Position numbers and translations under genes: made by a program. From NCBI GenBank assembly GCA_019136325.1, contig JAGVUJ010000247.1, positions 1 to 9,155 on the forward strand: a stretch of DNA of 9,155 nt, written 5' to 3'. The notes beneath the pieces were generated by a model. That model saw nothing but the letters and a program-made list of their open reading frames with translations, ran no database searches and was not told where the DNA came from. Shown here piece after piece: positions 1,984 through 9,155 of the stretch. Position 1 is the first letter of the stretch. Every line of letters starts with the position of its first letter. The stretch comes from Deltaproteobacteria bacterium (GTDB lineage Bacteria; Desulfobacterota; Syntrophia; Syntrophales; Smithellaceae).

Positions 1984-2684
1984 TTTCTTTCCTCCCCTGC
2001 AGATTCTGCGCCGGATCGCTGAGCACCGATTTTCCGGCCCGAATACAAGCTTTCATAAACATAGGGACTAAACCCGCAATCTTTCATCGCAAAAGCAATG
2101 CGGTCGATATCGTAATCGACCCTTCTGAGACATACCTTCTCTCCGTTAAAAAGGGCAAAGGCTGCTTTGGGGTCGTTGTCTCTGGGCTGCCCCACAGAAC
2201 CGGGATTGCAGTGGCAGATGGTCCCCAGAACACTCAGAGACTGAATATGCGTATGGCCGGAAAAGAAATACTTCGCCGACTCATTTCGAAAATACTCTTT
2301 ACTGACATCGGTTAAATACTCGTCCAGAGGATCCTGCCAGCCGCCGTGAACAAACGAGGCTTTGCCGTATTCCATTCTTGGAACCGAACACCTGAGCCAT
2401 TCCATATTTTCCGGCTTAATCTTCCCACGCTGGTATTCCAGCAGAACGTTGGCCACATTTGACCGAGGACAGGGCTGATCATATGCCAGGTAGTAATCGT
2501 GGTTCCCCAGAATATTCGGGATATTTTTTTGCCTCAGCAAATCAATGCATTCATTGATCTCGCAGTAATATCCGGCTACGTCACCCAGCGATACGATCCG
2601 GTCACAGCCGCTTTTTTCAATTTCACGTAAAACCGCCTGCAGCGCGGGAAAATTTCCGTGAATGTCGGAAATAACGGCCATCAT
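1980..2684 (-). CDS. Calcineurin-like metallophosphoesterase (YfcE/Ap4A-phosphatase type)
   Basis: This 234-residue cytoplasmic protein carries the full set of metallophosphoesterase motifs in order: DIHG (D7, H9), GDVAGY (D35), GNHD (N61, H62), VHGG (H113) and GHTH (H144, H146). NPGSVGQPRD (160-169) is typical of the small YfcE/MJ0936-like class. These residues bind two divalent metals and hydrolyse phosphomonoesters or phosphodiesters. The substrate cannot be predicted from the motifs. The gene begins with two tandem ATG codons (2684 and 2681). The first forms an ATGA overlap with the stop of the ATP-grasp gene, and no convincing Shine-Dalgarno sequence lies upstream, so expression probably depends on translational coupling. 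Within a glycan operon it may remove a phosphate from a sugar or acyl intermediate, or it may hydrolyse a by-product. That role is inferred from position only. Confidence 0.92.
   Translation of the reverse strand: MMAVISDIHGNFPALQAVLREIEKSGCDRIVSLGDVAGYYCEINECIDLLRQKNIPNILGNHDYYLAYDQPCPRSNVANVLLEYQRGKIKPENMEWLRCSVPRMEYGKASFVHGGWQDPLDEYLTDVSKEYFRNESAKYFFSGHTHIQSLSVLGTICHCNPGSVGQPRDNDPKAAFALFNGEKVCLRRVDYDIDRIAFAMKDCGFSPYVYESLYSGRKIGAQRSGAESAGEERK
1991..1997 (-). promoter_or_regulatory. Strong ribosome-binding site of the propeller gene
   Basis: The minus strand reads GGGGAGG, ending seven bases before the ATG at 1983. It lies inside the 3' end of the phosphoesterase gene and fixes the propeller start despite the ATGA overlap. 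It is the best Shine-Dalgarno sequence in the operon, so this gene may be translated partly on its own. Confidence 0.7.
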
Positions 2685-3646
2685 GAGAGGTCCACAACGT
2701 CTTCAATGTAGCGGACAGCCGTTCCTTTTTTAATGACTGCAGGACGGGGCATAACCTTCTCTCCAAAATATTCGATGCACATTTCCGGTTCATTAAAGCC
2801 GAACGCGGTGCGCAGAGAAAGCGAAGAAGAAAATCGCGGATTCACTTCCAGGAGAAGATAATCCCCCTGATGCCGCCTGAATTGAAAATTTGTAGGTCCG
2901 ACCGGCCTGAACAGAGCCGTCAGTCGCTTGATTTCCTCGTCAAGCTCCGGGATATCAACGGATTGCGCCTTGGCTGTGGAACCTTCCCTGCTCAGTTTTC
3001 TTGAAAAAGCAATGGATTGCGACAATGATCCATCCCCCAGCCCAAAAACACCGACGGTATATTCATGATCCTCATCGCCGACAATTTCCTGAAGCATAAA
3101 GTTGTCGCCCAACTTACCCTTCCAGTAGTCAAAATCCTCGCGGGACTGGAGAGTCACAATACCTTTGGAGGCGGATGAACGTCTCGGTTTAACCAAACAG
3201 GGGAGTTTTAATGATGAGGCAATGGTTTCGTAATCCTCCTCTGCGAAAGTATTTATCGCCTGAATCGAATGCGCGGTAAGATACTCATATAAACGCCACT
3301 TGTCTCTTGAGATTTCAATCAGCTCCCTGTTGTTCAAAATAATCTTGCTGATATCTCCTTTAAAACGATCCTGATCGTCGCAAAGTCTGTAAATCTCCGG
3401 TTCCAACCCTAAAAAAACCAAGTCGATCTTGTATTGATCAATGACGTCGGCGACAAAGTCGCAATAGCCGGGATCGGAAGCCCAAACCGCCTGAAGAAAA
3501 GCGTCGCACCATCGCCGGCCCACGGCGTCCGGATAAACATCCATGCCGACGATGTTGACGTCATACCGGCACTGTCTCAAAGAACGGACAATCCCGTAGC
3601 CGATGATCGCACCGATACCGGTGACCAACACATTATATTTTTTCAT
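2681..3646 (-). CDS. ATP-grasp ligase, carbamoyl-phosphate-synthase-like
   Basis: This 321-residue protein has an N-terminal preATP-grasp Rossmann-like domain starting VLVTGIGAIIGYGIV (6-20). An ATP-grasp domain follows, with the nucleotide-binding lysine in LVKPRRSSASKG (K153), QEIVGDEDHEYTVG (186-199), GPTNFQFR (250-257) and the magnesium-binding LLLEVNPRFSSS (E267, N269). ATP-grasp enzymes activate a carboxylate as an acyl phosphate and join it to an amine, thiol or similar nucleophile. The best guess is an amide-forming ligase that decorates a sugar or small acid with an amino acid or related group. The closest recognisable relatives are the CarB-like ATP-grasp proteins often found in capsule and O-antigen clusters. 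Its first 14 bases overlap the end of the thiamine enzyme gene. The only purine-rich stretch (AAGG) touches the ATG, so translation is probably coupled. The substrates are unknown. Confidence 0.9.
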   Translation of the reverse strand: MKKYNVLVTGIGAIIGYGIVRSLRQCRYDVNIVGMDVYPDAVGRRWCDAFLQAVWASDPGYCDFVADVIDQYKIDLVFLGLEPEIYRLCDDQDRFKGDISKIILNNRELIEISRDKWRLYEYLTAHSIQAINTFAEEDYETIASSLKLPCLVKPRRSSASKGIVTLQSREDFDYWKGKLGDNFMLQEIVGDEDHEYTVGVFGLGDGSLSQSIAFSRKLSREGSTAKAQSVDIPELDEEIKRLTALFRPVGPTNFQFRRHQGDYLLLEVNPRFSSSLSLRTAFGFNEPEMCIEYFGEKVMPRPAVIKKGTAVRYIEDVVDLS

Positions 3647-5408
3647 CCTTGGAAACAGGATCGTCCATATTACAAAGACGACTCAATTCCTTTCTGTCCA
3701 GCGGAGGAAACTGGTCTTCCACCGGACCCCTTGGAGCAGGTTCGGGAACAACCTGGGTTTTGGAAGAAAGCACTACCTCAAAAAGATGAGGCTTATCCAT
3801 TTCGAGCCCTCCATCGAGCCGGTCAAAATCTTCACGAGTACGAATTTTTGTATATAAAATATCAAATGCATATGCAAGTTTTTCAAAGTCCGGATTGGCA
3901 TATCCCTGAACCGAACCGTAGCATCGGTCATTGAAATATTTCTCCTGATAAGTCCGTATCAGCCCCAAAGATTGATTATTCATGACGAATATCTTCAATG
4001 GAATTCTTTCCCGAAACACAGTTTGCAATTCCTGCAGATTCATCTGAATGCCGCCGTCGCCCATCACACAAATAATCTGCCGATTGGGTGACGCACAATA
4101 AGCGCCAATCCCCGCCGGCAGGGAGTATCCCATTGCGCCATGCCCGGAGGAACTCAGCAGTTGTTTTCCACCGAAGAGACAGAAAGACTGAGCAACCCAC
4201 ATCTGGTTTTGTCCGACATCCGCACACACCACGGCCTTTCCGGAGGCCTTCCTGCTCAGAATATACAAGAATTCGTTGGGATCGACGCCACAGGGTTGAT
4301 CGTGCACCGGGTATGAAGGATATTGAACTTTCCACCGATGAATCTGGGCCAACCATTTTTTATTGTCTAAAGTTCCGCCACCTACTGCCGCGAGCGCCTC
4401 TTTCAGGAACGATTCGACATCGCAGCAGACGCTGATCGCTTCACAAACGTTATGGTTCAGTTCATCGGAGTCGACATCGACATGGATGATCCTCGCCTCT
4501 CTCGCAAAAAGAGTTTTATCCGGCCCCGTCTGGCGTTCATCCAGCCTTGAACCGAGAACCAGCAGCAGATCTGAATTTGCAACGGCAAAATTGGCATAGC
4601 GATTACCGTAGGATCCAATAAATCCGCAGAAATGTTTGTCCTCATGGTCAATTGCATCGAGGCCTCTCAGGGAACAAACGACCGGAAGATCGCAAACGGT
4701 ATAAAATTCTTCAAATATTCCCCGGCCTCTGATCGATGCCAGTCCGCCACCTGCCAAAATAACCGGTCTTTTGGCTTCCGACAACAGGGCGACTATTTTT
4801 TTTACCGTCAGTGAGTCAGGATGGCTCCTCTTTTTCATTTCCGCGGCGTATTCTTCAGAATCATAGAAGCTTTGCAGCAACGGAACATTGATTTCGCTTG
4901 CCTGCACATTGTGCGGAAGATCGATTAAAACAGGTCCGGGACGCCCAGACTGAGCATAAAAAAAAGCTTTTTCAAGAAAAAAACGTATTCTTTCCGGCTC
5001 CATAACCGTTTCGGCATATTTGGTAATCGGATTGACAATCGATACGATATCCGTTTCCTGAAAACCCTGCTGACGAATGGATTGCTTTGTTTTCATCTCA
5101 CGCTGACTCACCTGTCCGGTGATGAAAAGACAGGGTACGGAATCAAAAAAAGCATTAGCAATCCCCGTGATCAAATTGGTCGCGCCGGGACCGCTCGTGG
5201 CAATGGCAACGCCGACACCTCCGCTCACTCTTGCATAAGCGTCTGCGCAGAAGGAGGAAGCCTGTTCATGGTAATTCTGGATATAGGACAACCCTTTGAC
5301 TTTATGAAGCGAATCAATCAAGTGCGTAACGGAACCGCCCTGATAGCCGAAGATATGGCTGATCTTCTTTTCAAAAAGAAAGTTCATCACGTAATCTGAA
5401 AGCTTCAT
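3633..5408 (-). CDS. Acetolactate-synthase-like ThDP-dependent enzyme
   Basis: This 591-residue protein has the three-domain plan of the acetolactate synthase/pyruvate oxidase family. The PYR domain holds the catalytic glutamate in NYHEQASSF (E48) and [17 protein letters not shown] (71-87). The segment [16 protein letters not shown] (115-130) matches the substrate and flavin region of acetolactate synthases. The central domain carries [10 protein letters not shown] (286-295). The C-terminal domain has [14 protein letters not shown] (423-436) and the diphosphate motif from GDGG (450-453) to NN (477-478). Such enzymes decarboxylate a 2-oxo acid, usually pyruvate, and join the two-carbon unit to an acceptor. 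The tryptophan found after the NN motif in biosynthetic acetolactate synthases is tyrosine here (Y487). No regulatory subunit or other ilv gene is nearby, so branched-chain amino acid synthesis is unlikely. YerE, which adds acetyl to a keto-sugar, is a possible functional parallel. The start has an ATGA overlap with wbqC and GAGGT at 5419-5423. Confidence 0.93.
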
Positions 5409-6112
5409 CGTCGAACATACCTCATATACCGAGGCACATCGCTGCCACAGTTGAACAGCAGGTCCAGAATAGTGACGCCGTGCGTGAAATCACCCCAGAG
5501 CTGGGGGTATTCGGGATAGCCTTCATAATCAAACCAGGTAAGCTGGATGCCATTTTCAATAAAAACGGCTTCCTCGATATAACCCCGCGCGGCTGGCCCG
5601 GATATATATTCTTTGCCGCCGGCCTGGACGCATAAGTTGACCAGGCGCTCGGTTTTGCCGTCCATCAACTGGTAATCCCAGGAATTACGGATGATGGTAC
5701 GAATACCCAACTTCATGCACACCCATTCAATCAATGTGCGATTAAGTTGTGACAGATGCGAGTACTCGTTTTGGAGGTAAAGAGGCTCAAGCTCTTTCGC
5801 GATTTCATCAAAATGCTTTGCGCGACGGTAGTGCTGACTAAAAGATTTCCAATGTAATTCGGCCCATTCCGTGCCGTCGATTTCCGTTTCGCGAATGGTC
5901 TGGTGATATTTTCCTTTCACCTTGACCGGCACAGTCAACCATTGCACACCCTGCGGCGTCTTGATCTGGTTGCGGTTGCGCCAGTCGCGCCGCGTATATT
6001 GCATATCATCATAAAGGATGAATTCATCCACGGAGGCGATCATATCGAAATATCCCTTCCAGGGGATGTAGTTGGACTGGACGATGGCCACTTTCTTTTT
6101 ATTTGATTCCAT
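5405..6112 (-). CDS. WbqC-like family protein
   Basis: This 235-residue soluble protein is recognised by the signature N-terminus of the WbqC family: [18 protein letters not shown] (8-25), then [18 protein letters not shown] (33-50) with WLTVPVK (58-64). Later landmarks are [11 protein letters not shown] (169-179) and YPQLWGDF (202-209) followed by ILDLLFNCG (215-223), all in the usual order and at full family length. WbqC homologues occur in O-antigen, capsule and related glycan clusters, often beside aminotransferases or ligases. I know of no firmly established reaction for them; a transferase-like role is sometimes suggested. It is the first gene of the left-hand operon. The ATG at 6112 is chosen because the family motif begins within ten residues. 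Only a weak purine stretch (AAGAAA) lies upstream, and a candidate promoter is about 110 bases before the start. Its stop overlaps the ATG of the thiamine enzyme. Confidence 0.92.
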
Positions 6113-6339: not shown

Positions 6340-8301
6340 TTATCTTCCTTCAGCGCCCAATCCTCCGGTTAATTCGGCCAGCTTTTGCGCCAGGTACAGA
6401 GCGCCGGGCGTTGTTAAGTGACCTTCGTCCCATGTGGTTAGCCCATCGGCACGCCCATTAACCGTTGTCAGGCAGCCCGTTTTGTTGCACATGGCCTTCA
6501 GCGCGGAAAAATACACGACATCGTCCAAATTCTGAAGCTGAGTCTTGATCGTTTCATCAACGGCAACAACGCTTTGATCAAAATACTGATATGTGCGTTC
6601 CGGAACGTTGGCGGCACGAGTGCGTCTTAATTCTTTTACAAGAAGATTAGGTAATGGGCTCAGCCATTGCGGCGAAGGACCGACAACGATAATTTTTGAG
6701 ACACCTGCCTCTTTCAGTCTTTGAATGGTCGGAACAAGCGACCGCATGACCGTATCGTTATGGTCCAACTTAAGATAGCCTATCCAATGTGCGTGCAGAA
6801 TGACAATCGTCGGCCGCAGTTCTTTTATTTTTCCGAAAACGTAAATATTGGATTTATTGCAGTTGTTGTAGCCATAATTCAAAACTGGTGGGCAGGCGTT
6901 GCGGGCGAATTGCGCCAGACGGAAATCATCGCCTCCTAATGCTTTAAGGCCTGTATAGAAGCGGGCCGCATGTGAGTCCCCCCATACCAGAATGAATGTT
7001 TTTCCTTTTTCCGGCGGATCAACGCAGTCAGCGGAATACCCCTGTGCGTCGGCTGCCACGTCGAGCCAGCAGGCCCCCCGTCGGGTATCCGTCGCAGGAT
7101 CATATTTATACGTTGCATAGGACTGTATATCCGCACTGAACCGTTGAGGCATCCCGTTCATTATGAAACAGTAAAATCCCGCCACCCCGACAATTACCAT
7201 TGCCAAGAACAATGCCGGCGCTGTTCTCTTGGTTGAAAACGCAAATCGTATTGGCTTCTCAATGAGGCGATAGGTTAGATAGGCCAATAAGAGACTTAAA
7301 ATAACGATGGCGAGGCGCACCCATGTTGGCGGTATCTCTGAATGTATGATTCTCGCAAAAGAGAGCAGTGGCCAATGCCAGAGGTACAAAGGATAGCTGA
7401 TAAGCCCAACCGTAACAAACGCGCGTCGTGACAAAACCACTCGATTGAAAAATGAGCCTGGCCCGGCTTGGATTAACAGACCGGCCCCGACAACAGGCAA
7501 CATCGCTCTCCATCCGGGAAATTGAACATCATCTTTGAATAGCACGACCGACAACACAATAAGTAAAATTCCAAAGAACGACAGAAACGAGTGGAAATCA
7601 CTTTTGGAATCAACTCCGTTGCTTTTATCCGTCAAATTGCAGCAGGCAAGAATGCTTCCAAGCATCAATTCCCAAAAACGAGTAACGGGGGAATAGAATG
7701 CCGCTACAGGACTATTACACGTTAAATATAGGTTTATTACAAATGAAGCCACGAACAAAAAAAACAACAAATAAAAAGGATTGATCCGTTTTTTGCTTAC
7801 CGTGGCCAGAAGAAGCGGCCATATTATATAAAATTGTTCTTCGATGCCGAGCGACCATAGATGTAGAAGAGGTTTTAGCTCACTCGCTTTGTCAAAATAT
7901 CCGGACTCGGTCCATAGCAAAACATTAGCAATGAAACCTGCGCCTGCCGCAACATGCTCTCCCAATGCGCCGTATTCATTTGGCAATAACACCAGCCATC
8001 CAAGCGCCAGACAAAAGATCAGTACCAGCAGCAAGGCTGGAAAAATTCGTTTGATCCGCCGTTCGTAGAATAGACGAAATGAAAAAGTATTCTCTTTCAG
8101 GCTTTTGAGAATGATGCTTGAGATTAAAAATCCTGAAATGACGAAAAAAATATCAACACCAACAAAGCCGCCTGGCAACAACTCCGGAAATGCATGATAT
8201 GCAACAACGGATAAAACCGCAACGGCTCGTAATCCATCAATATCGCTTCTGTAAGTGAGGGTCACCAGTGAGCTCCCCTGATGCTCTGCCTTGCGGGTCA
8301 T
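6340..8301 (-). CDS. Membrane O-acyltransferase with C-terminal SGNH domain (OafA/YrhL family)
   Basis: From the ATG at 8301 the protein has 653 residues. An acyltransferase-3 membrane domain (about 17-380) is followed by a periplasmic SGNH domain (about 400-650). The membrane part shows YRSDIDGLRAVAV (17-29), the R-X10-H motif (R25, H36), FVGVDIFFVISGFLIS (46-61), FYERRIKRIFPAL (78-90), HLWSLGIEEQFYIIWPL (147-163) and SYPLYLWHWPLL (302-313). The SGNH part has VWGDSHAARF (nucleophile S443) and DEGHLTTPGA (D625, H628). Such proteins pass an acyl group, usually acetyl, across the inner membrane onto O-antigen, capsule or peptidoglycan. Three cysteine pairs (C411/C426, C470/C481, C605/C610) lie in the SGNH domain. 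An in-frame TTG at 8343 overlaps the folD stop and would add 14 residues. I prefer the ATG because the family domain starts soon after it, although its Shine-Dalgarno sequence is weak. Base composition is far more AT-rich than folD. Confidence 0.93.
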   Translation of the reverse strand: MTRKAEHQGSSLVTLTYRSDIDGLRAVAVLSVVAYHAFPELLPGGFVGVDIFFVISGFLISSIILKSLKENTFSFRLFYERRIKRIFPALLLVLIFCLALGWLVLLPNEYGALGEHVAAGAGFIANVLLWTESGYFDKASELKPLLHLWSLGIEEQFYIIWPLLLATVSKKRINPFYLLFFLFVASFVINLYLTCNSPVAAFYSPVTRFWELMLGSILACCNLTDKSNGVDSKSDFHSFLSFFGILLIVLSVVLFKDDVQFPGWRAMLPVVGAGLLIQAGPGSFFNRVVLSRRAFVTVGLISYPLYLWHWPLLSFARIIHSEIPPTWVRLAIVILSLLLAYLTYRLIEKPIRFAFSTKRTAPALFLAMVIVGVAGFYCFIMNGMPQRFSADIQSYATYKYDPATDTRRGACWLDVAADAQGYSADCVDPPEKGKTFILVWGDSHAARFYTGLKALGGDDFRLAQFARNACPPVLNYGYNNCNKSNIYVFGKIKELRPTIVILHAHWIGYLKLDHNDTVMRSLVPTIQRLKEAGVSKIIVVGPSPQWLSPLPNLLVKELRRTRAANVPERTYQYFDQSVVAVDETIKTQLQNLDDVVYFSALKAMCNKTGCLTTVNGRADGLTTWDEGHLTTPGALYLAQKLAELTGGLGAEGR

Positions 8302-8339
8302 TGTATGTTTTCTTAGCAAAAAGTTTTGATAGCTGAAGG

Positions 8340-9155
8340 TCAAGATGCTGCCATTCTCGCCGCGTCCAGGGTGTTTTTCATCAGCATGGCAATCGTCATC
8401 GGGCCGACGCCGCCGGGCACGGGCGTGATGGCGGATGCTTTGGGAGCGACTTCATCAAACGCCACATCGCCCGCCAGCTTGCCGTTTTCCAGACGGTTGA
8501 CGCCGACGTCGATCACCACCGCTCCTTCTTTGACCATGTCCGCGGTGATCATGCGCGGCTTTCCGACGGCGGCAATCAGGACATCGGCGCGTCTTGCCAC
8601 GGCGGGCAGGTCCTTCGTTTTGGAATGGCACATCGTCACCGTGGCATTTTGCGCCAAAAGCAGAAACGCCATGGGTTTGCCGACGATGTTGCTGCGCCCG
8701 ATCACGACCGCGTCTTTTCCGGAAAGCTCAATGCCGGTGCGGGCGATCAGCTCCATGATGCCCCGGGGCGTGCACGGAATAAACAGCGGCGAGCCGGTGA
8801 CGAGACGGCCGACGTTGGCCGGGTGAAAGCCGTCCACGTCTTTGTGCGGGTCGATGGCGGCGATTATTTTATCCGTGACGATATGTTTGGGCAGGGGAAG
8901 CTGAACCAGGATGCCGTGAATCTGCCTGTCGTTGTTCAGATCGCGGATCAGGGCCAGAAGCTCCGCCTCGCCGACATCGGCGGGCAGCTTGTATTCGCGT
9001 GACAGAAAACCCACCTCCGCGCAGGCTTTGGCCTTTCTTCCCACGTAAACTTTCGAGGCGGGATCGTCTCCCGCCAGCACGACGGCCAGACCGGGCACGA
9101 CGCCGGTCCTTCGCGTTAAGACTAATGTTTCTTCCCGAACCGCCTGGCGGATATC
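8340..9155 (-). CDS. folD: Bifunctional methylenetetrahydrofolate dehydrogenase/cyclohydrolase FolD, 5' end cut by the window edge
   Basis: The frame is open to the right edge and shows 271 codons. Compared with the roughly 290-residue family, about a dozen N-terminal residues are missing. FolD oxidises 5,10-methylene-THF to 5,10-methenyl-THF with NADP and hydrolyses it to 10-formyl-THF in the cytoplasm, feeding purine and formyl-methionine synthesis. Clear signatures are [19 protein letters not shown] followed by RKAKA, with the catalytic Y-X3-K pair; [29 protein letters not shown]; the nucleotide-binding [12 protein letters not shown]; and [12 protein letters not shown] near the end. All expected motifs are intact. 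A GTG at 9098 is in frame, but it falls inside the conserved PGLAVVL region, and family-like sequence (IRQAVREE) continues upstream, so the true start lies beyond 9155. The gene is GC-rich, unlike everything to its left. The acyltransferase ATG follows its stop by 38 bases, so read-through transcription is likely. Confidence 0.97.

Follow-up and report, generated by a model that had tools for sequence, protein, structure and literature searches.

A WbqC, thiamine diphosphate enzyme and ATP-grasp operon of a Smithellaceae bacterium as a possible version of a modular cassette for an amide-decorated amino sugar

YerE-like lyases, which belong to the biosynthesis of yersiniose-type branched sugars, act on keto-sugar nucleotides (PMC12247030, section 2.1). 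The nitrogen of Qui4N can carry formyl, acetyl, N-acetylglycyl or N-(3-hydroxybutyryl)alanyl groups and that of Qui3N an N-acetylalanyl group, as listed in PMC3210612, which shows that sugars of this kind do occur with amino-acyl amides. In this study, genes for a WbqC family protein, a thiamine diphosphate (ThDP) enzyme, an ATP-grasp ligase and a metallophosphoesterase (MPE) were analyzed in a 9,155-base stretch of DNA from a Deltaproteobacteria bacterium of the Smithellaceae (assembly GCA_019136325.1, contig JAGVUJ010000247.1), here called the window. Each enzyme family was already known. The combination was not described in the accessible text of the open-licence literature on WbqC, on acetolactate synthase and O-antigen, on ATP-grasp, ThDP and amino sugars, and on YerE; the accessible text on WbqC assigned no reaction to the family.

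The operon may be one variant of a modular cassette whose product would be an amino-deoxyhexose that carries amide decoration and is destined for the cell surface; we give this reading slightly less than even confidence. The preliminary description of this DNA had placed overlapping WbqC, ThDP and ATP-grasp genes at positions 2681–6112, followed directly by the MPE gene. This layout was exact, and the Pfam and NCBIfam assignments matched the four names (Table 1). An unusual building block had been proposed as the product. It can now be sharpened to a sugar that is probably an amino-deoxyhexose, with a branched sugar and an acyl group both as candidates.

The ThDP enzyme was classified from its sequence as a ThDP-dependent carboligase of clade B in the YerE superclade. 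Behind its GQV motif lies an insert of 6 residues that is also seen in its best Protein Data Bank (PDB) match, 5ahk, which we take to be PpYerE. When 8 clade A, 25 clade B, 52 clade C and 23 IlvB-like proteins were aligned, all 85 proteins of clades A, B and C had this insert and none of the 23 IlvB-like proteins did. The Trp position presumed to set the 2-ketobutyrate preference of acetolactate synthases was occupied by Trp in 19/23 IlvB-like proteins and in 0/85 superclade members, with Tyr487 in the window enzyme. The catalytic Glu was kept in all aligned proteins. The Arg aligned with what we take to be the acceptor-binding residue of acetohydroxyacid synthase (AHAS) was kept in 22/25 clade B and 51/52 clade C proteins. 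The tree was built with 29 of 120 listed relatives and no named YerE sequence; L062 and L078 (no full open reading frame called) and L081–L084 and L088 (duplicates) were excluded. Clades A, B and C split from the IlvB-like proteins with a support of 0.919, and the window enzyme lay inside clade B with a support of 0.984, L022 being the outermost member. A Chloroflexi protein was 68% identical to the window enzyme, and a partial Smithella protein was 92% identical across 56% of it. The enzyme is predicted to ligate to a carbonyl acceptor.

The neighborhoods of 55 ThDP loci were counted over the open reading frames within 8 genes, using family hidden Markov models (HMMs) seeded partly from these loci. 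L017 (ThDP open reading frame not called), L056–L080 (IlvB-like) and L087 (duplicate of L012) were excluded. The 41 clade C loci contained RfbH (35), nucleoside diphosphate (NDP)-hexose dehydratase (34), RfbF (23), WecE-like DegT (6) and FdtA (2), with no ATP-grasp and neither HAD nor MPE. Judged by its genes, this setting is that of yersiniose and agrees with the YerE substrate given in PMC12247030 (section 2.1). The 8 clade A loci contained ATP-grasp (8), HAD (7), FdtA (6), WecE-like DegT (6), FemAB-like (4), GH130-like (4), NDP-hexose dehydratase (4), RfbH (1), RfbF (1) and MPE (1). In the 6 clade B loci other than the window, ATP-grasp (6), WecE-like DegT (5), WbqC (3), MPE (3), HAD (1), GH130-like (1) and FdtA (1) were found; RfbH and NDP-hexose dehydratase were 0/6 each, and no genes for the cytidine diphosphate (CDP)-3,6-dideoxy-4-ketohexose were seen in the window. 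Clades A and B thus have ATP-grasp in common and, in most loci, also a phosphatase and a transaminase of the amino-sugar type. Three transaminases were tested (L020, L028 and L093), and all exceeded the WecE cut-offs. The glycan setting proposed earlier was borne out by these WecE-type transaminases of sister clusters and by the undecaprenyl-phosphate-type glycosyltransferase in the window. A search of 39 clade C genomes with the window ATP-grasp gave no match at E 1e-20, a weak test in which most clade A ATP-grasps were missed too. Genome G439 (Gastranaerophilales) had both cluster types, clade A (L045) and clade B (L094). L022:6341-11725 was a row of FdtA, ATP-grasp, HAD, HMGL-like aldolase and clade B ThDP enzyme; the aldolase might be the source of a hydroxy-keto-acid donor.

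The ATP-grasp protein passed the NF009402 cut-off of 218 bits and scored 49 bits with ATPgrasp_Ter (cut-off 29.1), and it is a candidate amide-forming carboxylate-amine ligase. Window-type ATP-grasp genes were found in 13 loci, several of them short stretches: the window, L018, L020, L028, L032, L092, L093, L094, L186 and L212–L215. MPE adjoined ATP-grasp in 11/13 loci; WbqC and a DegT aminotransferase were each present in 9/13. The gene directly before ATP-grasp encoded a ThDP enzyme in 7 loci, a short-chain dehydrogenase/reductase (SDR) in 3 (L186, L212 and L215) and a methyltransferase in 2 (L092 and L093). The last was uncertain: in L213 a 120-aa piece was 40% identical to the L093 methyltransferase and had no Pfam match. 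Four of the 7 ThDP-slot loci (L018, L020, L028 and L032) were found via the ThDP query and are therefore biased. In the 7 loci found first by the ATP-grasp query at E 1e-50 (L092, L093, L094 and L212–L215), the slot held ThDP in 2, methyltransferase in 2, SDR in 2 and the uncertain piece in 1, with MPE in 6/7 and WbqC in 5/7. The preliminary description had expected WbqC, ThDP and ATP-grasp to occur together in other genomes. Linkage beyond chance was confirmed, since all three stood together in L018, L020, L094 and L214 and the genes were linked across phyla. WbqC and ATP-grasp were often paired, and the complete trio was less frequent, as the ThDP share of 2/7 indicates. The three-gene set would then be one version of the cassette, whose ThDP slot may hold an SDR or a methyltransferase instead.

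The tree of 15 ATP-grasp sequences grouped mostly by taxon, not by slot. In Gastranaerophilales the versions were mixed: L094 (ThDP) paired with L212 (SDR) at a support of 0.908, and L215 (SDR) came next at 0.981. This mixing points, in a small sample, to a constant ATP-grasp step combined with a variable finishing step. The set was rare, with ATP-grasp matches at E 1e-50 in 1/345, 3/344, 0/321 and 5/286 genomes; the centre genome was among the matches in all samples but the third. The 0/321 came from the phylum of G1142, despite the Chloroflexi relative of the ThDP enzyme. Viral contigs gave no match to the ATP-grasp query. In L186:7888-13645, from the phylum sample of G001, WbqC (36% identity) stood in one row with a pair of radical SAM proteins, followed by MPE, ATP-grasp and SDR. 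In L128:6261-8931 on Sinorhizobium pSymB, a related ATP-grasp overlapped a PHP-domain protein, followed by an epimerase-family oxidoreductase. Judged by its domain, the PHP protein adds a third kind of phosphatase-type partner to those seen with this ATP-grasp family.

The predicted fold of WbqC was BshC-like, and WbqC is proposed to be an amide-forming enzyme on the amino sugar. Where the earlier description saw no settled reaction, amide formation is now suggested by the modeled fold. The WbqC family in Pfam is large, with at least 7,999 candidates. Among the matches listed, a Smithellaceae protein was 88% identical to the window WbqC, and proteins of Pseudomonas, Anaerolineales and Deltaproteobacteria (P0184, P0190 and P0224) were 78–79% identical. 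Such identity across phyla is high for a glycan gene. Relatives with 53–67% identity lay on IMG/VR viral contigs (L131–L134), two of which were 155–169 kb. When E. coli genomes were searched at the DNA level for distant WbqC matches, only two short ones at chance level appeared.

The glycosyltransferase family 2 (GT2) protein matched sll0501 (5eke, which we take to be GtrB) at E 5.6e-46 over residues 2–303 of 315, and the ArnC enzyme 9hwj at E 3.5e-35 over residues 2–302. The homology included the membrane part. The conserved motifs were inspected by eye in the translations. The HEQ glutamate and GDG...NN were seen in the ThDP enzyme, EVNPR in the ATP-grasp ligase and a complete metal site (DIH/GD/GNHD/GHTH) in the MPE. 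By analogy, the MPE is proposed to remove phosphate from an intermediate.

Together, these assignments would give the following route. A WecE-type transaminase, encoded beyond the window, would first form a deoxythymidine diphosphate (dTDP)-4-amino-4,6-dideoxyhexose. WbqC and the ATP-grasp ligase would attach a group to the sugar nitrogen through one or more amide bonds, and the MPE would strip this group of its phosphate, by analogy with Cj1438 and Cj1435 (PMC11800397). The ThDP enzyme, whose family is established, would transfer two carbons, with pyruvate as the most likely donor, onto a carbonyl of the intermediate and form a tertiary alcohol. The branch could be on either the sugar ring or the attached group. 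The SDR or methyltransferase in the ThDP slot of sister clusters suggests that reduction or methylation may take the place of branching at this position. The GT2 protein, on strong homology, would finally load the sugar onto undecaprenyl phosphate for flipping and transfer.

Several results weigh against this route. Sequence homology between WbqC and BshC was not detected: hhalign gave a probability below 1%, with no match either with 4 BshC sequences or with 34 BshC against 167 WbqC sequences. A WbqC profile matched no chain in the PDB, and a Foldseek search with WbqC gave no match at E 0.001. BshC activity itself had not been shown in vitro according to a 2015 review (PMC4360819). WbqC was missing near 4/13 ATP-grasp loci (L028, L032, L213 and L215) and is therefore not essential to the module; L028 and L032 had ThDP, ATP-grasp and phosphoesterase genes. 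MPE was missing at 2/13 loci (L018 and L094). No transaminase was found in the window or within the stretches examined at L092, L213 and L186, which makes 4/13 loci. Two amide-forming candidates per operon require two amides, or another role for one of them. The slot argument covers 13 loci and the ATP-grasp tree 15 sequences, the ATP-grasp, HAD and MPE models were seeded from clade A and B loci, and some inner nodes of clade B were weak (0.051 and 0.345).

Six genes formed a chain on the minus strand in the order WbqC, ThDP, ATP-grasp, MPE, GH130-like and GT2. Neighboring genes overlapped by 4 bases, except for 14 bases between ThDP and ATP-grasp. The GT2 gene ends at position 119, and anything further falls beyond the window. 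The gene for the AT3-SGNH acyltransferase was separated from the WbqC gene by 227 bases; its product possibly acts in a later step of the pathway, and its membership is uncertain. The GH130-like protein was 33% identical to a protein of an alphaproteobacterial WbqC cluster. GH130-like proteins recurred in clade A ThDP clusters (4/8), Gastranaerophilales and rhizobial WbqC clusters.

Table 1. Genes of the window, with positions and supporting matches.
Feature	Position	Strand	Details
AT3-SGNH membrane O-acyltransferase	8343-6340	minus	PF01757 + PF19040 above cut-off
WbqC family protein	6112-5405	minus	235 aa; PF08889, 276 bits
ThDP enzyme	5408-3633	minus	591 aa; TPP_enzyme N/M/C domains x3, 117-133 bits
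ATP-grasp ligase, PRK12767.1-1 family (carbamoyl-phosphate-synthase-like)	3646-2681	minus	321 aa; NF009402 243.3 bits
Metallophosphoesterase (MPE)	2684-1980	minus	234 aa; Metallophos_2 73.5 bits; 3rqz_A E 1.1e-23
GH130-like protein	1983-1063	minus	GH130 19.5 bits, below cut-off 26 (weak); 7fip E 0.006
GT2, GtrB/ArnC type (undecaprenyl-phosphate sugar synthase)	1066-119	minus	full-length PDB matches
folD	window edge, incomplete	minus	upstream of AT3-SGNH gene

The G+C content was about 0.45–0.51 in the glycan genes and rose up to 0.55 over the folD end (8001–9155), which suggests that the glycan island starts beside a housekeeping gene. In the window, an Rfam scan gave nothing at gathering scores. 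There were 8 promoter matches (9.5 on average in shuffled sequence, sd 3.6) and 16 terminator matches (11.1 on average, sd 3.6), both near chance.

The ThDP enzyme could instead condense pyruvate with a phosphorylated substrate, either a keto acid or an aldehyde. The ATP-grasp ligase would attach the resulting branched hydroxy acid to the amino sugar, and the MPE would then take off the phosphate. This reading, originally favored, is now considered rather unlikely. Consistent with such a route, the ThDP enzyme is accompanied by ATP-grasp and, in most loci, by a phosphatase in two clades whose phosphatase folds differ (HAD in 7/8 clade A loci; MPE in 3/6 and HAD in 1/6 clade B loci). The Arg kept in most clade B proteins, which binds the acceptor in AHAS, also fits; however, it is no discriminator, as clade C keeps it too. 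The varied N-acyl groups known on amino sugars (PMC3210612) likewise agree. If the ATP-grasp ligase recognized a product of the ThDP enzyme, its tree should group by slot, which was not the case; the tree thus does not favor ligation of a ThDP-made acid, and this made the acyl route a rival.

As for yersiniose, the ThDP enzyme could also put an acetyl branch on a dTDP-keto sugar ring, with ATP-grasp, WbqC and MPE working on a different sugar in that glycan. The slot SDRs are NAD-dependent epimerase/dehydratase proteins (PF01370), a family in which many members act on nucleotide sugars. YerE-like lyases are the closest characterized subclass, and their use of keto-sugar nucleotides is described in PMC12247030 (section 2.1). 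However, CDP-hexose dehydratase or RfbH was absent within 8 genes in 6/6 clade B loci, a WecE-type transaminase would consume the same 4-keto group, and the window genes overlap. We regard this reading as rather unlikely.

It is quite improbable that the ThDP enzyme and a transaminase make an amino alcohol, and that ATP-grasp and MPE couple its phosphorylated form to a sugar carboxylate before removing the phosphate. The logic is that of Cj1437, Cj1438 and Cj1435 in Campylobacter (PMC11800397), but the three transaminases tested were of the WecE sugar type. An ordinary biosynthetic acetolactate synthase placed in a glycan cluster by chance is very improbable and, from the protein features, largely refuted, as the preliminary description had expected: TIGR00118 was the best NCBIfam model, but its 494 bits fell below the cut-off of 538.35, the enzyme has the YerE insert and lacks the Trp, no small-subunit gene was seen beside the ThDP gene within the window, and the ATP-grasp association would be unexplained.

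The BshC-like fold and the transaminase neighbors turn WbqC into a testable enzyme. A wider possibility, which we consider somewhat unlikely, is that WbqC proteins are widespread BshC-fold amide ligases adding amino or hydroxy acids to nucleotide-linked amino sugars. The cassette would finish the same amide-bearing sugar by SDR reduction, methyltransferase methylation or YerE-type two-carbon branching, yielding undescribed amide-decorated, C-branched surface amino sugars. At least two groups of YerE-superclade carboligases lie away from CDP-dideoxyhexose genes. They would extend the known range of ThDP chemistry in surface glycans and provide new biocatalysts for tertiary alcohols.

Compared with known systems, the window enzyme shares with the YerE-like lyases (YpYerE, PpYerE, ErwE and JanthE) the ThDP decarboxylase superfamily, the 6-residue insert and the absence of the AHAS Trp. 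It lies in a separate clade beside ATP-grasp, phosphatase and amino-sugar genes, whereas the YerE type lies beside RfbF, CDP-hexose dehydratase and RfbH. BshC, the cysteine-adding enzyme of bacillithiol synthesis, has about 540 aa, more than twice the length of WbqC, which is not a member of PF10079; Pfam reported only PF08889. The GT2 protein is homologous to the ArnC/GtrB synthases over nearly its full length, yet it is far below the ArnC equivalog cut-off (NF007986, 134 against 529 bits). The dTDP-Fuc4N and dTDP-Qui4N pathways (WecE, VioA/VioB) resemble the sister clusters in their WecE-type transaminases. A NeuD/VioB-type acetyltransferase was found in the alphaproteobacterial WbqC cluster tested; none was seen in the window, which has ATP-grasp and MPE. 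The Campylobacter C-terminal amide ligase of Cj1438 and the phosphatase Cj1435 show the same order of ATP-dependent amide formation and phosphate removal in glycan decoration. Cj1435 is an HAD phosphatase and the substrate there is a uronic acid, whereas the partner in the window is a metallophosphoesterase; among the ThDP loci, an HAD partner occurs in 7/8 of clade A and, within clade B, in L022.
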